A stretch of 13,020 nt of DNA, taken from the NCBI GenBank assembly GCA_024650095.1, contig JANKMV010000027.1, positions 1 to 13,020 of the forward strand, in the 5' to 3' direction. The position numbers and the translations under genes are program-made. Below, piece by piece: positions 3,753-13,020 of this stretch (positions are counted from its first letter, which is position 1; each line of letters opens with the position of its first letter). The notes under the pieces are model-generated. The model ran no database searches. It saw only the letters and a list, made by a program, of their open reading frames with translations, and was not told where the DNA came from. This stretch comes from Bacillota bacterium (lineage in GTDB: Bacteria; Bacillota; Dethiobacteria; Dethiobacterales; Dethiobacteraceae).

Positions 3753-5207
3753 CTATTGCAAAGAAGCTGCAGCTGCAGCCGCTTCTGCTCCAGTAACACG
3801 GCCTAAAGTGAATGACATGGTAATGGATGTACCACTGGCGGGATAGATAGTTTTGTAAAGCTGACCGTTAGCAACTTCACCCACAGCATAGAGACCTTGG
3901 ATAGCTTCTCCTGCAGTGTTGAGCACTTCACCTGCCAAATTAATACGGGGACCACCAAAGGTACCCAAAGTAGCAGGTGATACACTTAATGCGTAGACTT
4001 CACCGTCTTCTAGTGGTGCTATCGCAGCGTTACCAAAGTCTTCGTCATTTCCAGCCGCTGCCAATTCATTGAACCGATCTACCGTTGCCATGAAGGCATC
4101 AACCGGTACACCAATGGCTTCTGCCAAATCTTCAAAGCTGTCTGCTTTAGAGACATAACCTGTGTCCAAAGAATCTTCTAGAGTTCCAACTACCGGTGAA
4201 TTCTTGTCAAAGATAGAATAAAAATCGTCACCACCGGTTTCGACCATTTTTTCATACATAATAGCATAGTGGTTGGCTTCATTCATGAACCGGTTTCCGT
4301 CCTCATCCACATAAAGGCTAGGCATAAATACCAGCCCACCAAGGGGCCTGGAGTAAGGATAATCAGCGGCAACGCCACGGAAGCCAATAACTCCGTTTTT
4401 AGCCACTACATCCGCTCCTGCTTCTACAGCCATGCGCAGACCGTCACCTACGTTGCCAGGAGATACATAACTAATATGGCCCGCGGCAACGGGTGCATAC
4501 TCTTCAAGCATTTCTACACTCTTGTCAAAGCCACCGGTAGCCAATACAACGGACCCAGCAGTTATGGTAAACAGTTCCCCATTTTCCCCTTCGGCTTCCG
4601 CACCGGTCACCCGTCCATCCTCATCAATAATGAGGCTGGTGGCAGCGGTGTTTAACATAATCTCCACTCCTTTTTCACTAGCTACGTCACCAGTGGGACC
4701 AATAAGACCAAGGCCTCCGTTCGCTGCAGATACATGACCTCTCAGTGCAGGACTAATGCCCTGAGCCGATAGATTTTCTGAAAACTCAACACCTAAGCCT
4801 TCTAACCAGGCAATGGTCTCACCTGAATTTTCGGCGATATAGTTAATCAAGTCTTCATCAACATCGCCCTCAGCCATTTCTATCCAATAGGCGGCTAGGT
4901 CTTGCCAATTTTCTTCTACGCCGGCACGTTCCTGTACAGGTGATTCCGCGGCATACATAATACCACCGGATATAACCGTACTACCACCCAGTGCAGGTAG
5001 CTTCTCTAGCAAAATCACAGAAGCTCCAGCTTCTACCGCTTCAATGGCTGCTGCCAAACCGGCAGCCCCGCCGCCGATAACCAGCACATCCGTGGTTAAT
5101 GCTTCGCTATCATCATTATTATTAGGATCATTTGTACCTCCACAGCCTGCCAATGCAACAACCAATAATACAACCATCATCAAAATAAACATCTTTCTTA
5201 TACCCAT
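3753..5207 (-). CDS. FAD-dependent lipoprotein oxidoreductase, fumarate-reductase superfamily with divergent active site
   Basis: 484 aa. AGGGG lies about 7 nt before the ATG. The signal peptide ends VALAGC (Cys22), followed by an Asn/Asp linker, so it is an extracytoplasmic lipoprotein. A FAD Rossmann motif (DVLVIGGGAAGLAAA) lies at about 40-54, a DGR motif near 197-199 and VLATGGF near 221-227. The segment ALTTDVLVIGGG is shared exactly with the flavoprotein at 2086-464, so the two are paralogues. The catalytic set differs: the Arg equivalent to Arg374 of the paralogue is Tyr314 (NRFMNEANHYA), HHTMGG is replaced by TLGTFGG (about 413-419) and NRLGGNA by YPASGTS (about 455-461). It is probably not a fumarate reductase. 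It may oxidise or reduce another substrate in the manner of the ketosteroid-dehydrogenase branch. It is monocistronic; a TATAAT at 5290-5285 is a weak promoter candidate with no clear -35. Confidence 0.8.
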   Translation of the reverse strand: MGIRKMFILMMVVLLVVALAGCGGTNDPNNNDDSEALTTDVLVIGGGAAGLAAAIEAVEAGASVILLEKLPALGGSTVISGGIMYAAESPVQERAGVEENWQDLAAYWIEMAEGDVDEDLINYIAENSGETIAWLEGLGVEFSENLSAQGISPALRGHVSAANGGLGLIGPTGDVASEKGVEIMLNTAATSLIIDEDGRVTGAEAEGENGELFTITAGSVVLATGGFDKSVEMLEEYAPVAAGHISYVSPGNVGDGLRMAVEAGADVVAKNGVIGFRGVAADYPYSRPLGGLVFMPSLYVDEDGNRFMNEANHYAIMYEKMVETGGDDFYSIFDKNSPVVGTLEDSLDTGYVSKADSFEDLAEAIGVPVDAFMATVDRFNELAAAGNDEDFGNAAIAPLEDGEVYALSVSPATLGTFGGPRINLAGEVLNTAGEAIQGLYAVGEVANGQLYKTIYPASGTSITMSFTLGRVTGAEAAAAAASLQ

Positions 5208-5507: not shown

Positions 5508-5557
5508 GAAACGGTCTGCGTTCATTACCCTATTCCATGCCACTATAAAATGTAAAA
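5508..5557 (-). pseudogene. Relic of the katG 3' end
   Basis: These 50 bases match 9635-9684, the extreme 3' coding end of katG, at 47 of 50 positions by hand count. The frame reads F-I-V-A-W-N-R-V-M-N-A-D-R-F-N, against [15 protein letters not shown] in the intact protein. It begins 20 bp after the GGDEF stop codon, in the same orientation as katG, and has no upstream katG sequence. It is too close to the intact gene to be chance and too short to code for a product. Confidence 0.75.
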
Positions 5558-5577: not shown

Positions 5578-7074
5578 TTACCGTTGACTTTGCTTCTTTT
5601 TTGCTTTATTTTGATACATCCGATTGTCAGCTTTCTTGATGAGCTCTTCAAGACTTGTATCAGATTCGCCAACAGAATATCCAACAGATATGCCCAACTG
5701 TAACTTGCTATTGATATTGTTGTTAACAATGGCATTGCAGATTCGTCCCTTAAATTCTTCCGCCTGATACTTATCACATTTTTGTATTATAATTACAAAC
5801 TCATCGCCCCCTATCCGTGCAATAAAGTCTGCATTTCTTGTAGATGCCTTAAGTAAACTAGCGGCCAATGTAATTAGCTTATCACCTTCTGCATGACCTA
5901 AACTATCATTGATTACCTTTAACCCGTCTAAATCACAAAGAAAAGCAGTAACGGGATATTCGACTACAGCTTCAGTAAGAAATTTGTTATAGTAAGTACG
6001 GTTATAGAGGCCCGTCATTGTATCGTGATGACTGTTATATTCTGCTTCATTTCTTGATTGAATAAGCAATTCATATTTCTTTACATTTGAGAGAACAAGA
6101 GCACTAACGTTTACTAGAGCAATAGATAAATTCAAGTAGTCATCGAAGTGTTGTGGGAACAAAAAATCGCCGACTTTCAAAATACCGAACAACTCGTCAT
6201 TATACTTAATTTTTATATAAAAACCATTTTTGCATGAATTTAACCAATAATGCATATCGTCATTTAGTACGCCCACCTGAAACTCATGGTCTTGAGCGTT
6301 TTTGATTTTGTCTTTTTCAATATAATCGCATGTTTGAGCACCAAAGAGAAAAAGAAACACTTCTTTAATCTTGCCAATAACTTCTCTTTGATTATCAGAA
6401 TTTGATATTTGCTCCATTACTTTTAAAACTGCAGCATACTCCGCAAGTTGACGGCGTAGATCATTCATTTCTGCTTTACTTTCAGTCTTTATACAATGCA
6501 GTCTCCATTCAAGGACAATACTGCGCAAATAGACGGACACCATCTCCAAATCAATTTGTATTACTCTGTAAGGGATATTGAGATAGTTGGATAAATCCTG
6601 TAATTTATGCTGGGCTTTATTATCAATACCAGCATCTAAAAACACAAGTTCTTTGGCAAACTCCCCATAGAAATTGCGAGCAATATCCTGTTCAAAACCA
6701 GCCTCACGTAAGCGAGATTGCCAGTCAGACAGCCAACCGGAACTGATTAAATAGCCACCATTTTCTATTATATAGTCACTAAATTGCCTGTGTATTAAAT
6801 GTGAAAAACAAGAAACTGACCGATGCAATTTGTAACCCTCTGGCAGAAGGTGTTTATATTGCATAACATCACAAGATGAACTGCACACAAGTGCAACTTG
6901 ATTTTGGTGGTATTCCGCTTGCTGGAATAATTGCTGCACACTAACTTTATTTCCCTTTGATTCGCACAAGCTAGGAAATGCACGAACAATAACATCTTCA
7001 TATTGTTCGTGTTCTGCGGCCTTGCAAAATTCAGAACAATAATTTTCGCAAACTAAAAGAATCAGTTTTTTCAT
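5578..7074 (-). CDS. DUF1638-like / GAF-like / GGDEF protein, probable diguanylate cyclase
   Basis: 498 aa. The ATG at 7074 overlaps the stop of the preceding methyltransferase gene (ATGA), so translation is coupled. Residues about 1-190 resemble DUF1638: a Cys-containing strand (ALVCSSSCDV, 61-70), SCFSHLI (88-94), then GGYLISSGWLSDW (106-118), which matches the YYLTPGW-type motif I recall for that family. A helical linker leads to a GAF-like region (about 215-335). The GGDEF domain follows: DTMTGLYNR (351-359), DLDGLKVIND (381-390), intact GGDEF at 422-426, and an RxxD I-site (RNAD, 413-416) exactly five residues before it, the usual product-inhibition site. It should therefore make c-di-GMP and be feedback-controlled. 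There is no membrane segment, so it is cytoplasmic. The fusion and operon suggest that the N-terminal domain senses the methyl-corrinoid system. The DUF1638 assignment is by motif memory and less certain than GGDEF. Confidence 0.85.
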   Translation of the reverse strand: MKKLILLVCENYCSEFCKAAEHEQYEDVIVRAFPSLCESKGNKVSVQQLFQQAEYHQNQVALVCSSSCDVMQYKHLLPEGYKLHRSVSCFSHLIHRQFSDYIIENGGYLISSGWLSDWQSRLREAGFEQDIARNFYGEFAKELVFLDAGIDNKAQHKLQDLSNYLNIPYRVIQIDLEMVSVYLRSIVLEWRLHCIKTESKAEMNDLRRQLAEYAAVLKVMEQISNSDNQREVIGKIKEVFLFLFGAQTCDYIEKDKIKNAQDHEFQVGVLNDDMHYWLNSCKNGFYIKIKYNDELFGILKVGDFLFPQHFDDYLNLSIALVNVSALVLSNVKKYELLIQSRNEAEYNSHHDTMTGLYNRTYYNKFLTEAVVEYPVTAFLCDLDGLKVINDSLGHAEGDKLITLAASLLKASTRNADFIARIGGDEFVIIIQKCDKYQAEEFKGRICNAIVNNNINSKLQLGISVGYSVGESDTSLEELIKKADNRMYQNKAKKKQSQR

Positions 7075-8126
7075 TTTTTATCAACCCAGTTTAATGGGTA
7101 GCTACCCCACTTCCTCACAGCCTCACCAATGGCAAGCAGAACATCTTCAGAGACTTGCCATGGAATTTCCCCATGATTATCTGATAATATTAGTCCACCA
7201 CCAACTCCTGTAGCGGCGATAATCTCTTTCACTTGTTTTTCTGCTATTTGACAATCCCAATTTACCATGTCCATGGCGTTCATGTTTCCAAGTAGGCAAA
7301 TTTTATTTTGACTAGCTTTTTTAATATGTTCTAAACTATCTAACCCACTGAACCCTAGAACCGCACTGCCCATGGCAACAATGTCCTCTAGGACGGGTAG
7401 CGTCCTACCCGAGGCCAAATGCATAGCTGTTGGCCCGTTAATGCGTGCTAACGTCCTTTGATCAACAGAATAGCCGGTCGCAAAATACGTATTTCTTTCA
7501 ATTATTGTAGGGGAAGCTAAAGGATTAAAGTAACAGATTGCCGTTGCTCCTGCTTTGATCTGTGCATTTGCCCAAGCGACACAAAATTCCTCATTTATTT
7601 TCATTAACTTTGTAAAAGAGTCTTTATTGAAATACAACATCTCGATGTATTTTTCAAAGCCTAACTGCATAACTGGCAGTGAAAATGGTGACATAACAAC
7701 ACCAATTATAGGTACACTATCCTTCACTTCTTGCTTCAGTCTACTTGTTACTTCTAATACTCGCCGCAAGGACAGTGACTCATCAATTACAGGAATACTC
7801 ATATTAGTAATTTGTTGATACGATTGTAACATAGGTTCTCCAGAATTAGGAGGACCATCATCAACAAAGACAACCTCGGCTCCCCAAGCCTCCACCTCTA
7901 GCGCTGCATAAAAAAAAGTATAAAGACAATCATTGTTGTATTTTTTTTGCATCGCTAGCTGAGCGTGCACGACATTATCAACTGAAGAAAAGTAATCTTT
8001 CACGGTAAGCTTAAGTTCTTTCGCCCCATAAAGCGAAAGAAGTAAAAATAATGGAACCCGGTCAGGCTCTTGGTGACCTAGAGCAGTTAAAACACGTGTT
8101 AATGAATTCATAGTATCTTTACTCAT
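7071..8126 (-). CDS. URO-D/MtaA-family corrinoid methyltransferase
   Basis: 351 aa. The start at ATG 8126 (MSKDTMNSLTRVLTALGHQ) lies 4 nt after the corrinoid gene stop, with GGTGG upstream. Earlier in-frame starts would overlap that gene by up to 56 bp. The opening ALGHQEPDRVPLF, the later GVVMSPFSLP and the C-terminal GGGLIL block are typical of the uroporphyrinogen decarboxylase-like fold used by MtaA, MtbA and CmuA, which move methyl groups between a corrinoid protein and a thiol or folate. Those enzymes bind zinc by H-x-C plus a distal Cys. Here the positions read His236-Leu-Ala238 and, in the C-terminal block, SDNHGEIPW (Asn317/His318), so both Cys are missing and the distal ligand may be His. 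The methyl donor and acceptor are unknown. Neighbours on both sides are translationally coupled or nearly so. Confidence 0.8.
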   Translation of the reverse strand: MSKDTMNSLTRVLTALGHQEPDRVPLFLLLSLYGAKELKLTVKDYFSSVDNVVHAQLAMQKKYNNDCLYTFFYAALEVEAWGAEVVFVDDGPPNSGEPMLQSYQQITNMSIPVIDESLSLRRVLEVTSRLKQEVKDSVPIIGVVMSPFSLPVMQLGFEKYIEMLYFNKDSFTKLMKINEEFCVAWANAQIKAGATAICYFNPLASPTIIERNTYFATGYSVDQRTLARINGPTAMHLASGRTLPVLEDIVAMGSAVLGFSGLDSLEHIKKASQNKICLLGNMNAMDMVNWDCQIAEKQVKEIIAATGVGGGLILSDNHGEIPWQVSEDVLLAIGEAVRKWGSYPLNWVDKK

Positions 8127-8130
8127 CAAA

Positions 8131-8766
8131 TCACACCACCTGACTGATTGTCTCAATAATATGGGAGGCATTTTTACCGTCTGCATCGGCTCCGACTTTT
8201 CTCCATAGACTGGAATCTAGCCTAAAGGGAGCCCCTCCAACAATGATGCGAATTTTAGATTCTCTTTTTTCCAGTTCATCCTTAATATCTTTAACCTTCA
8301 TCGCAGACGTAAGCATTAAAGTTGAAATTAATAGAACATCAATCTCGTTTTCTATGGCAAGCTTCACGATTTCATCTGCATGTAAGCCGGCTCCAAAATC
8401 TATGAGGTGAAAACCATTGGCCCTAACAATTGAAGAAACTATCTTCTTTCCTAAACTATGATGATCCTGTAGTACCACGATTGCTAATCTAGGTTTTGCT
8501 TTTCTCTTAATCTGTAGTTTTGGCAAATAACTATCCGTGATTTCTTCCGCAATGACCCCACTCATATAAACCTGAGACAAGGAGACTGTTCCGTCTTCCC
8601 ATCCGTTTCCAATTTTCTCTAATGCCTGACCGATGATCCTTTCAATAGCTGCAAAGCTTTTAGCGACCGCAAAATACGATTCTATAATTCTTGATGCCTC
8701 GACTCTATTTACGGATAGTAATGCATTCGTAAAATCGTCTGATAGTTTTTCATCAATATAATCCAC
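8131..8766 (-). CDS. Corrinoid (B12-binding) methyltransferase protein, MtaC/MtbC-like
   Basis: 211 aa from GTG 8766, preferred because GAGGTG (8778-8773) lies 6 nt upstream. An ATG at 8802 gives 223 aa but has no recognisable ribosome binding site. The N-terminal about 80 residues form the helical cap (B12-binding 2) with repeated hydrophobic helices and GWEDGTVSLSQVY. The Rossmann B12 domain follows, with the D-x-H-x2-G motif as QDHHSLGKKIV; His103 would be the lower axial cobalt ligand. Later strands IDVLLISTLML and IIVGGAPF fit the fold. Such proteins shuttle a methyl group as methyl-Co(III). It is the first gene of the operon with the URO-D methyltransferase and the GGDEF protein. No MttB/MtaB-type substrate methyltransferase is present in the window, so the methyl source cannot be named. 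Confidence 0.85.
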   Translation of the reverse strand: MDYIDEKLSDDFTNALLSVNRVEASRIIESYFAVAKSFAAIERIIGQALEKIGNGWEDGTVSLSQVYMSGVIAEEITDSYLPKLQIKRKAKPRLAIVVLQDHHSLGKKIVSSIVRANGFHLIDFGAGLHADEIVKLAIENEIDVLLISTLMLTSAMKVKDIKDELEKRESKIRIIVGGAPFRLDSSLWRKVGADADGKNASHIIETISQVV

Positions 8767-9508
8767 CCTATTCACCTCTTTCGCTAGTACAACTTCTTTC
8801 ATTCGACATATTAATATAAATAATTGCTAGCGTGACGGACGCCTGAAAAATATCACCATAAACATACCTTCGGTAGCCTGGCTGTTTTTACATATACAAT
8901 GCTGCAGACCCTTTAGGTTTGCGTTCTAATCTTTCGATTGTTTTGCCTTTTCCAGTATAACAATAACTTATCATAGCGCTTGAAAAATAACAACAAAATA
9001 TTACAATATTCGCGCTTATTTGGCAATAACGTTTACATTGATTATAAGCTGCATTATCGGTAGCATCCACACACCCCTTCAACTAAAATGTTCCACCCGC
9101 AAAGCGGCGCTACTAAGACAAGTACAACGTATATCCTTGTTGCTGGCGCAGGTAGCGGAGAACAGGCTACTAGCGACATAATATTTTACCTTTACACCGT
9201 GGCAGTAAGCGATTAGTAATAAAATCTCTAACACAGAATAGCTGATCCAGTTCAGGTGCCAAAAAGGCTGTGCTGACAAAGAGGACGCATATGTTTTAGC
9301 TGAGATCTTAATATTCACCCTACGCGCACGGTGTGTACCGGAAGGGGGGTCATTAGTGCTCTAGCCGATGCGGGGCGACGATCGCTTCCGTGGCAAGCAT
9401 CCGTTTGAGGATAAAGACTTTGTGAAGATGAACAGATTCTTCTCGGCGAAAAGGTAAAATCAATCTAGTACAGCCTTCTTCCTATATACGAAAGATTACG
9501 CTGTTTAC
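8767..9508 (-). other. Intergenic region without a recognisable gene
   Basis: About 740 bp between the corrinoid operon and the katG terminator. Two open stretches on the minus strand (9318-9079 and 9082-8888) have poor starts, unusual Cys-rich composition and no family resemblance; the end of the second (GKGKTIERLERKPKGSAALYM) looks somewhat protein-like but was not identified. No convincing -35/-10 pair for the corrinoid operon was found. An AT-rich TATATT near 8807-8812 is a weak -10 candidate. Confidence 0.4.
9368..9457 (+). other. Short GC-rich plus-strand open frame, possibly a gene relic
   Basis: ATG at 9368 to TAA at 9457, 29 aa, reading MRGDDRFRGKHPFEDKDF and ending RFFSAKR. GGAAGGGGGG lies 19 nt upstream, too far for a normal ribosome binding site. 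It is richer in GC than the surroundings and its amino acid composition looks coding-like, as at the C-terminus of a decayed gene. I do not recognise the family. Confidence 0.25.
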
Positions 9509-9622: not shown

Positions 9623-11988
<2,366 letters not shown>

Positions 11989-12147: not shown

Positions 12148-13020
12148 TCAATCTTCCGTATGTTGTACCAAGGTTCTTTGAGGGATTAATGACCGAAGAC
12201 CTGTCAATCGCAGTGCTTCATCTTTGCTGTTGATACATACGTCTCTTACTCCACGCAGTAGTGTACCAGCGATAGTGTCATCCCAAAACCATTTATCAAG
12301 TACCTGACTAGTCAAATCAGCGGCACCCGGTTGTGCCGTGATAGCCTCGTAATAATAAGCCTTCAAATCCTCAGCTGCATACCTGAGTTCTTGAACTAAA
12401 GAGACATCCTCGCGGGGATTCTGAGGAATAATACCACTAAGGAAAGAGCACAAAAAATCTGCGATTATCTCCGGTGTGAGTTTGCTGATGCCGACGATGG
12501 AACGTCCCCGCGCTTTTACTGCCTGTTCATACCAGGGTCGCATCGAAGTCATTTCTACTTTGAAGTTGGAACAAAGGTCTTCAGCCTTTGTTTGGTTAAC
12601 CTGCTCCTTTTGCGGAACATATGGGCAGGCTAGCATCATCGGTTCATTTGTAGATATTTCTGGGGCATCCTCTAGGAAATCCATAAGCACTGGACCGTTG
12701 GTAGCTTCAAGAAGATTAAGTGCTGCCATCAGAACACGCTTCTGAAAAGCCGGATTATTCGGTACTCCAAATGGTCGCCCAAGTTCAAACGGTACCCAGA
12801 GTGCCCGTGGAGGTTTGATAATTTCTGTATGTGGCCGAATCAAGCTGATTTGTGTTGTTGCAATACCTTCTTCTTCAAAAAAATGTGCCAGCCCGCCCAC
12901 GGCGCGCGTGCAAAATGGTCAGACCGGTACCAACAATACGGTATCGACGTTGTCTTTTTTTAATAATCCTGCCAGGTAACGAGCCGATTGTTCCCATTTT
13001 ATTGGATCGATGGCACCCAT
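12148..13020 (-). CDS. GrdB/PrdB-family reductase selenoprotein (5' partial, UGA read as selenocysteine)
   Basis: 290 residues are visible when the in-frame TGA at 12921-12919 is read through. The frame enters at the window edge on an ATG (13020), which may be internal. Before the TGA it reads DNVDTVLLVPV, after it PFCTRAVGGLAHFFEEEGI, giving VPV-U-PFC-TR. This places Sec34 in a U-x-x-C redox motif as in selenoprotein B of glycine, betaine and sarcosine reductase (S/T-x-U-x-x-C-T-R). Downstream PPRALWVPFELGRPFGVP and the Q-x3-L helix match the family's conserved second half. Such proteins reductively cleave an amine or amino acid substrate; this branch lacks an assigned substrate that I know of. 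Starting translation at GTG 12900 would discard the active site and has no ribosome binding site. A small GC-rich hairpin (CGCC-GTG-GGCG) begins 14 nt after the TGA and could be the SECIS. A terminator follows the gene. Confidence 0.75.
12919..12921 (-). other. In-frame UGA, probable selenocysteine codon
   Basis: TGA flanked on both sides by conserved, uninterrupted protein sequence of the same family. It is followed by P-F-C, so it occupies the redox position of a U-x-x-C motif. The frame has no other stop from 13020 to 12150. Confidence 0.75.

Follow-up and report, generated by a model that had tools for sequence, protein, structure and literature searches.

What would a corrinoid methyltransferase and its carrier protein be doing in one operon with a diguanylate cyclase? 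The question is raised by contig JANKMV010000027.1 of a Bacillota bacterium (draft assembly GCA_024650095.1, 556 contigs totaling 2.66 Mb), analyzed here from end to end; its 13,020 bases are called the window. Three genes are found on its minus strand in the order corrinoid (B12-binding) protein, methyltransferase of the uroporphyrinogen decarboxylase (URO-D) family, and a sensor protein composed of a DUF1638-like N-terminus, a GAF domain and a GGDEF domain. A 4-nucleotide (nt) gap and a 4-nt overlap separate them, so that the tight packing noted in an original prediction, made from the sequence without database searches, agrees with the coordinates (Table 1). The three genes moderately probably constitute a sensory cassette, in which the methyltransferase and the corrinoid protein would generate an input that is read by the DUF1638-GAF half of the sensor and switches its output domain.

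Linkage of the three genes

Relatives were collected from two sides. On the methyltransferase side, an alignment of seven cassette methyltransferases was used as the query against named species genomes; it retrieved 255 relatives, and all counts rest on the best 80, the other 175 being set aside. The corrinoid gene adjoins the methyltransferase gene in 80 of these 80 loci, with a gap of -10 to 137 nt, and is split into two frames in three of them (L050, L077 and L118). A sensor module lies directly downstream of the methyltransferase in 75 loci (start at -19 to 467 nt). Fifty-eight of these modules start with DUF1638 and 17 comprise the GAF part only, one of the latter being cut by a contig end (L051). 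Among the 58, the GAF end is reached by 55, two are broken (L057 and L095) and one is cut by a contig end (L101). Four of the five contigs lacking a sensor stop at most 171 nt from the methyltransferase.

On the sensor side, genomes were drawn in two overlapping sets, 59 relatives and 398 from the phylum, and 12 genomes among them carry a sensor module that is either full or split by a frameshift. The URO-D gene is adjacent in all 12, and the corrinoid gene in all 11 that have room for it. Three of these loci coincide with contigs of the methyltransferase survey (L048, L072 and L117), and a thirteenth match (G028), truncated at its contig end, stands outside the count. Word-sharing protein searches yielded 14 and 17 relatives only. 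Chance clustering of the three genes is ruled out by the linkage counts. The original prediction had tied DUF1638-GGDEF fusions to B12-binding and URO-D genes: the tie itself holds, since homologs of the sensor sit beside methyltransferases (75 of 80 and 12 of 12) and not mostly away from them, but DUF1638 is not the constant part of the linked protein.

Twenty whole genomes of cassette bearers were also searched. Sixteen of them have a single full sensor module and one has two, and the remaining three contain GAF-only matches, one of these genomes having two. According to record names, the bearers include Bacillota, Desulfobacterota, Pseudomonadota, SAR324, Chloroflexota, Nitrospirota, Bacteroidota, Armatimonadetes and Aminicenantes.

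A probable input unit with exchangeable outputs

Output parts were compared in 73 sensors, namely that of the window and those of 72 of the 75 module loci, three too-short ones being dropped. HATPase domains are present in 38, HisKA in 35, GGDEF in 19 and receiver domains in 16. Across the 53 complete loci, mean pairwise identity is 61% for the methyltransferase, 48% for the corrinoid protein and 30% for the sensor module. Because outputs swap between kinases and GGDEF domains and the methyltransferase stays conserved, the methyltransferase-corrinoid pair has the appearance of a unit devoted to input. The distance matrices of the three genes correlate over the same 53 loci (r of 0.64, 0.67 and 0.77, highest for the corrinoid-sensor pair), and none of 2000 permutations gave values as high, species relatedness being uncontrolled.

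The flanks of the 80 loci were surveyed using frames chosen greedily by length and single-linkage clusters. One large signaling cluster of 136 proteins across 53 loci, judged by its example only, is represented by a response-regulator-type protein; apart from it, any one family appears in at most 6 of the 80 loci. The sensor as a regulator of an adjacent catabolic operon was rejected because no metabolic neighbor recurs beyond that number. Linkage, swapping outputs and flanks taken together are better explained by an input unit into which different outputs are plugged than by a metabolic operon.

A short C-terminal PICxxCKKIR stretch was found by motif search in 11 of 72 sensors, all of them GAF-only (L059, L062, L068, L073, L075, L085, L088, L090, L106, L112 and L123). 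These proteins consist of a GAF domain and a Cys-rich C-terminal stretch of about 80 residues, in which the motifs used recognized no output domain.

The sensor protein

A profile search against Pfam DUF1638 (PF07796) gave 23.1 bits for the whole window protein and 24.3 bits for the module alone, below the cut-off of 27. All 60 aligned full modules match the family at E ≤ 0.01. The DUF1638-like N-terminus proposed in the original prediction is thereby borne out, though the window protein itself scores under the Pfam cut-off. Among eight proteins compared, four pass it (44.8, 41.6, 30.9 and 27.9 bits), one stays under it (14.3 bits) and three have no DUF1638 match, one of which (P0014) is devoid of the DUF1638-GAF front half. 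The sensor of L104, from a Syntrophomonadaceae genome, passes with 33.9 bits. Four cysteines, Cys9, Cys37, Cys68 and Cys89, are kept in 59, 57, 55 and 58 of the 60 fused modules, respectively. DUF1638 also occurs as a solo protein, and in 27 such matches Cys9, Cys68 and Cys89 are kept in 26, 27 and 27; Cys37, found in 57 of 60 fused modules, is present in none of the 27.

The central part of the sensor has the GAF-domain fold, and GAF matches occupy its list of structure matches. No convincing solved relative of the DUF1638-GAF module was found by sequence (best E 0.25). The GGDEF domain scores 121.1 bits against a Pfam cut-off of 23.8, and both its GG(D/E)EF active site and its RxxD inhibitory site are intact, as anticipated. 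It is predicted to be an active diguanylate cyclase.

The methyltransferase and the corrinoid protein

The URO-D domain and both B12-binding domains of the operon proteins score over their Pfam cut-offs. In an alignment, the corrinoid protein shows the cobalamin motif DxHxxG..SxL..GG of an MtxC-type carrier, and this motif is complete in 78 of 80 relatives. CarH proteins are marked by the signature Wx9EH; CarH-type light sensing was rejected, as the signature was found in 0 of 80 corrinoid proteins (for the three split genes, the best piece was tested).

The URO-D protein does not fall into the known enzyme types that were tried. Uroporphyrinogen decarboxylase HemE was rejected at 59.4 bits against an NCBIfam cut-off of 302.95. 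So was a methylcobamide:coenzyme M methyltransferase of the MtaA/MtbA kind, with NCBIfam scores of 104.9 against 244, 90.4 against 235.4, 84.3 against 400 and 50.1 against 600. The zinc site of MtaA and MtbA consists of HxC and a distal Cys. The window enzyme has HLASG where the methanogen enzyme has HICG, which argues against a zinc-type coenzyme M methyltransferase, and among 33 sequences compared, Cys is present in over half only at positions 67, 182, 198 and 272, a pattern without the zinc cysteines.

The enzyme stands apart from its paralogs as well. A profile built from the cassette gives it 639 bits and the other URO-D proteins of the genome at most 36, and six of these other ten miss an E of 1e-3. 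In a tree with the genome's own URO-D proteins, the four of ten that passed the profile attach by very long branches; for both reasons only the score gap is used here.

A riboswitch in the operon leader

A c-di-GMP-I (cyclic di-GMP-I) riboswitch aptamer precedes the operon. Rfam RF01051 matches over its full length (model 1-87 of 87) with 49.9 bits against a gathering score of 35 and an E of 1.9e-7 over the window; the aptamer lies on the same strand as the operon, 66 nt ahead of an ATG at 8802. With this riboswitch located just upstream, c-di-GMP, the product of the cyclase, probably feeds back on the operon. Between aptamer and gene, a scan found no terminator-like hairpin, and the leader fold is not more stable than shuffled sequences (z 0.99). 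The c-di-GMP output stressed in the original prediction gains from a riboswitch on the same operon; as the output of the family it did not stand, being only one of several (19 GGDEF against 38 HATPase).

The window genome has four c-di-GMP-I aptamers, including the leader copy. One (G000:C111, 5110-5197; L196) precedes flagellar basal-body rod genes and another (G000:C210, 4096-4172; L197) precedes two camelysin-like proteins. The fourth stands before a frame without a Pfam match that contains a signal-peptide-like stretch. The same genome has two PilZ and ten GGDEF matches.

Proposed mechanism

The proposed input consists of the methyltransferase acting together with the corrinoid protein. 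The enzyme would load the methyl group of a donor onto the protein-bound corrinoid, or fail to, and the DUF1638-GAF front half would read the methylation or redox state of the corrinoid protein by contact. This presupposes that the three proteins touch. The reading would then switch the output domain, here a diguanylate cyclase, so that the output may be controlled by the methyl donor or by the corrinoid state; the variable sensed could be the methyl donor, the methylation or redox state of the corrinoid, or cobamide supply. The candidate riboswitch would probably close a feedback loop, and c-di-GMP would probably reach the flagellar and camelysin-like genes via the other riboswitch copies.

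A broader proposal, which is tentative and falls short of probable, is that such cassettes form a cross-phylum class of signal input, in which a non-metabolic methyltransferase-corrinoid pair serves as sensory subunit, a (DUF1638-)GAF module as receptor and a host-specific domain as output, with a riboswitch-closed c-di-GMP loop in the present case. If true, bacteria of many phyla, including (by record names) sulfate reducers, magnetotactic bacteria, Chloroflexi and methane oxidizers, would sense methyl-group or corrinoid status directly through a receptor dedicated to it. Part of the unexplained DUF1638 family would obtain a testable role, and c-di-GMP would connect one-carbon metabolism with motility and with surface-related decisions.

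Weighing the alternatives

Several observations weigh against a sensory cassette of this kind. As the query was built from cassette members and 175 weaker relatives were left out, the linkage count applies to the closest subfamily. One locus, L058, has room downstream of the methyltransferase yet carries no sensor. DUF1638 is missing in 17 of 75 loci that keep the GAF domain, so a DUF1638-corrinoid contact cannot be general; in two of the three GAF-only genomes searched, solo DUF1638 is encoded elsewhere. The gene-distance correlations may be read only with species relatedness uncontrolled. The cassette itself contains no second methyltransferase and no corrinoid reactivase, three reactivase pieces being located elsewhere in the window genome. 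RF01051 exceeded its gathering score in none of 29 other cassette loci (10, 10 and 9 scanned), 27 of which contain the leader (L013 and L125 begin inside the cassette); not being found in those 27 leaders, the riboswitch looks like a local addition. Lastly, the cassette URO-D gene is absent from six of six Bacillota loci with solo DUF1638, and a CRP/FNR-type regulator lies within about 0.7 kb of solo DUF1638 in all five loci scanned (L134-L138) of the six fetched, some of these genomes being close relatives. The occurrence of solo DUF1638 away from the cassette URO-D gene and near such regulators suggests that DUF1638 may play a wider regulatory or redox role.

These last findings also bear on the best-surviving alternative, a redox or oxygen sensor, which is unlikely but deserves to be taken seriously. 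Here the signal would lie in the electron state of two centers, the corrinoid and a metal or iron-sulfur site on the DUF1638 cysteines, and methyl transfer would only keep the corrinoid poised. The sharing of Cys9, Cys68 and Cys89 with solo DUF1638 (Cys37 being specific to fused modules) is consistent with it, as are the neighboring CRP/FNR-type genes. So are bearers with Beggiatoa-like, magnetotactic and sulfate-reducing record names, read as life in gradients and sediments. DUF1638 has moreover been linked to corrinoid reactivation, a DUF1638 protein being named alongside RamA in the part of the source consulted (PMC12478193). Against this, the metal site is only putative, and the loci without DUF1638 would lack it.

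An ordinary catabolic system, in which the pair feeds a methyl donor to metabolism and the sensor regulates that metabolism, is distinctly improbable. The window organism is probably a methyl user, its genome having 11 URO-D and 13 B12-binding matches, fragments possibly among them, besides the reactivase pieces. The dichloromethane mec cluster, as far as the consulted sections describe it, likewise has a histidine kinase together with URO-D and corrinoid proteins (PMC9768040). In L104, pyrrolysine insertion elements of the methylamine methyltransferase genes mtbB and mttB, at 2638-2737 and 3986-4085, sit about 3-5 kb upstream of the cassette. The flanks without a recurrent metabolic family argue otherwise, and so do a gene order that is constant across bacteria of differing lifestyles (by record names) and the distance of the cassette URO-D from the genome's others.

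Sensing of cobamide supply, by which occupancy of the corrinoid protein and not its methylation would be read, is very improbable: the nearly universal corrinoid motif and the presence of about one cassette module per genome are in keeping with it, but the accompanying conserved methyltransferase is left unexplained. A light sensor of the CarH or photocobilin kind is scarcely credible, for although photoreceptors, putative or demonstrated, in which a cobalamin-binding domain is joined to a diguanylate cyclase are known from the consulted part of the literature (PMC11796333), the methyltransferase would have no role.

Surroundings of the cassette

Two katG 3′ ends on the minus strand, identical at 47 of 50 bases, flank a 4-kb segment with the riboswitch and the cassette, as if it had been inserted or duplicated there. 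Two flavocytochrome-c-type FAD proteins are encoded on the same strand at 464-2560 and 3753-5207, one of them adjoining a separate gene for an FMN-binding lipoprotein-like protein. A 250-residue frame at 12148-12900 (minus strand) has no Pfam or NCBIfam match at E 0.1 and no PHROGs match at 0.01.

Table 1. Features of the cassette and its borders in the window
Feature	Position	Strand	Remarks
Corrinoid (B12-binding) protein	8131..8766	-	Alternative start at 8802; Pfam B12-binding 71.1 bits, B12-binding_2 30.2 bits
URO-D family corrinoid methyltransferase, distinct subfamily	7071..8126	-	
Sensor protein DUF1638-GAF-GGDEF, 498 residues	5578..7074	-	
DUF1638-like N-terminal domain, residues ~1-180	6535..7074	-	Pfam score below cut-off; nearly invariant C9, C37, C68 and C89
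GAF domain, residues ~207-345	6040..6456	-	
GGDEF diguanylate cyclase domain, residues 348-495	5590..6033	-	Pfam PF00990, 121.1 bits
RxxD inhibitory site (413-416) and GGDEF active-site motif (422-426)	5797..5838	-	
Candidate c-di-GMP-I (GEMM) riboswitch aptamer, operon leader	8869..8957	-	Rfam RF01051
Remnant of katG 3′ end directly after the sensor gene	5508..5557	-	Direct repeat of 9635-9684

Comparison with known systems

No description of the cassette was found in the open-access literature searched, as far as the consulted parts go, which accords with the original prediction's statement that it knew of no described system of this kind. Several known systems share individual parts. In Phaeobacter inhibens, mutants of the DUF1638 gene PGA1_c13340 are rescued by methionine, like mutants of B12-dependent methionine synthase (PMC5764234). 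This DUF1638 protein is likewise encoded beside a B12-binding gene, within a split methionine synthase set; it differs in being described without a proposed function, and the consulted sections mention neither an output domain nor a signaling role (PMC5764234).

The mec cluster for dichloromethane resembles the cassette in placing URO-D methyltransferases and a corrinoid protein beside a histidine kinase, MecA. According to the parts consulted, it differs by a PocR domain in the kinase, a second methyltransferase, a transporter and its catabolic function (PMC9768040). MsmS and RdmS of Methanosarcina are, similarly, methyltransferase-associated sensor kinases that contain several PAS and GAF domains and control methyl-sulfide genes (PMC6944256). 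In contrast to the window sensor, with which they are compared here through excerpts of the papers only, they are archaeal and sense heme or thiols, and RdmS was later reported not to be an autokinase (PMC11784639).

The chloromethane system CdmB/CdmC and the O-demethylases also combine a zinc-free methyltransferase of the URO-D fold with a separate corrinoid protein; they are metabolic, and the consulted text does not mention a fused sensor (PMC13222342). In CarH and the photocobilins, light is the signal and a methyltransferase partner goes unmentioned in the sections consulted, whereas a sensory role for the corrinoid cofactor, in some cases linked to a diguanylate cyclase, is the feature that they have in common with the proposed cassette (PMC11796333).

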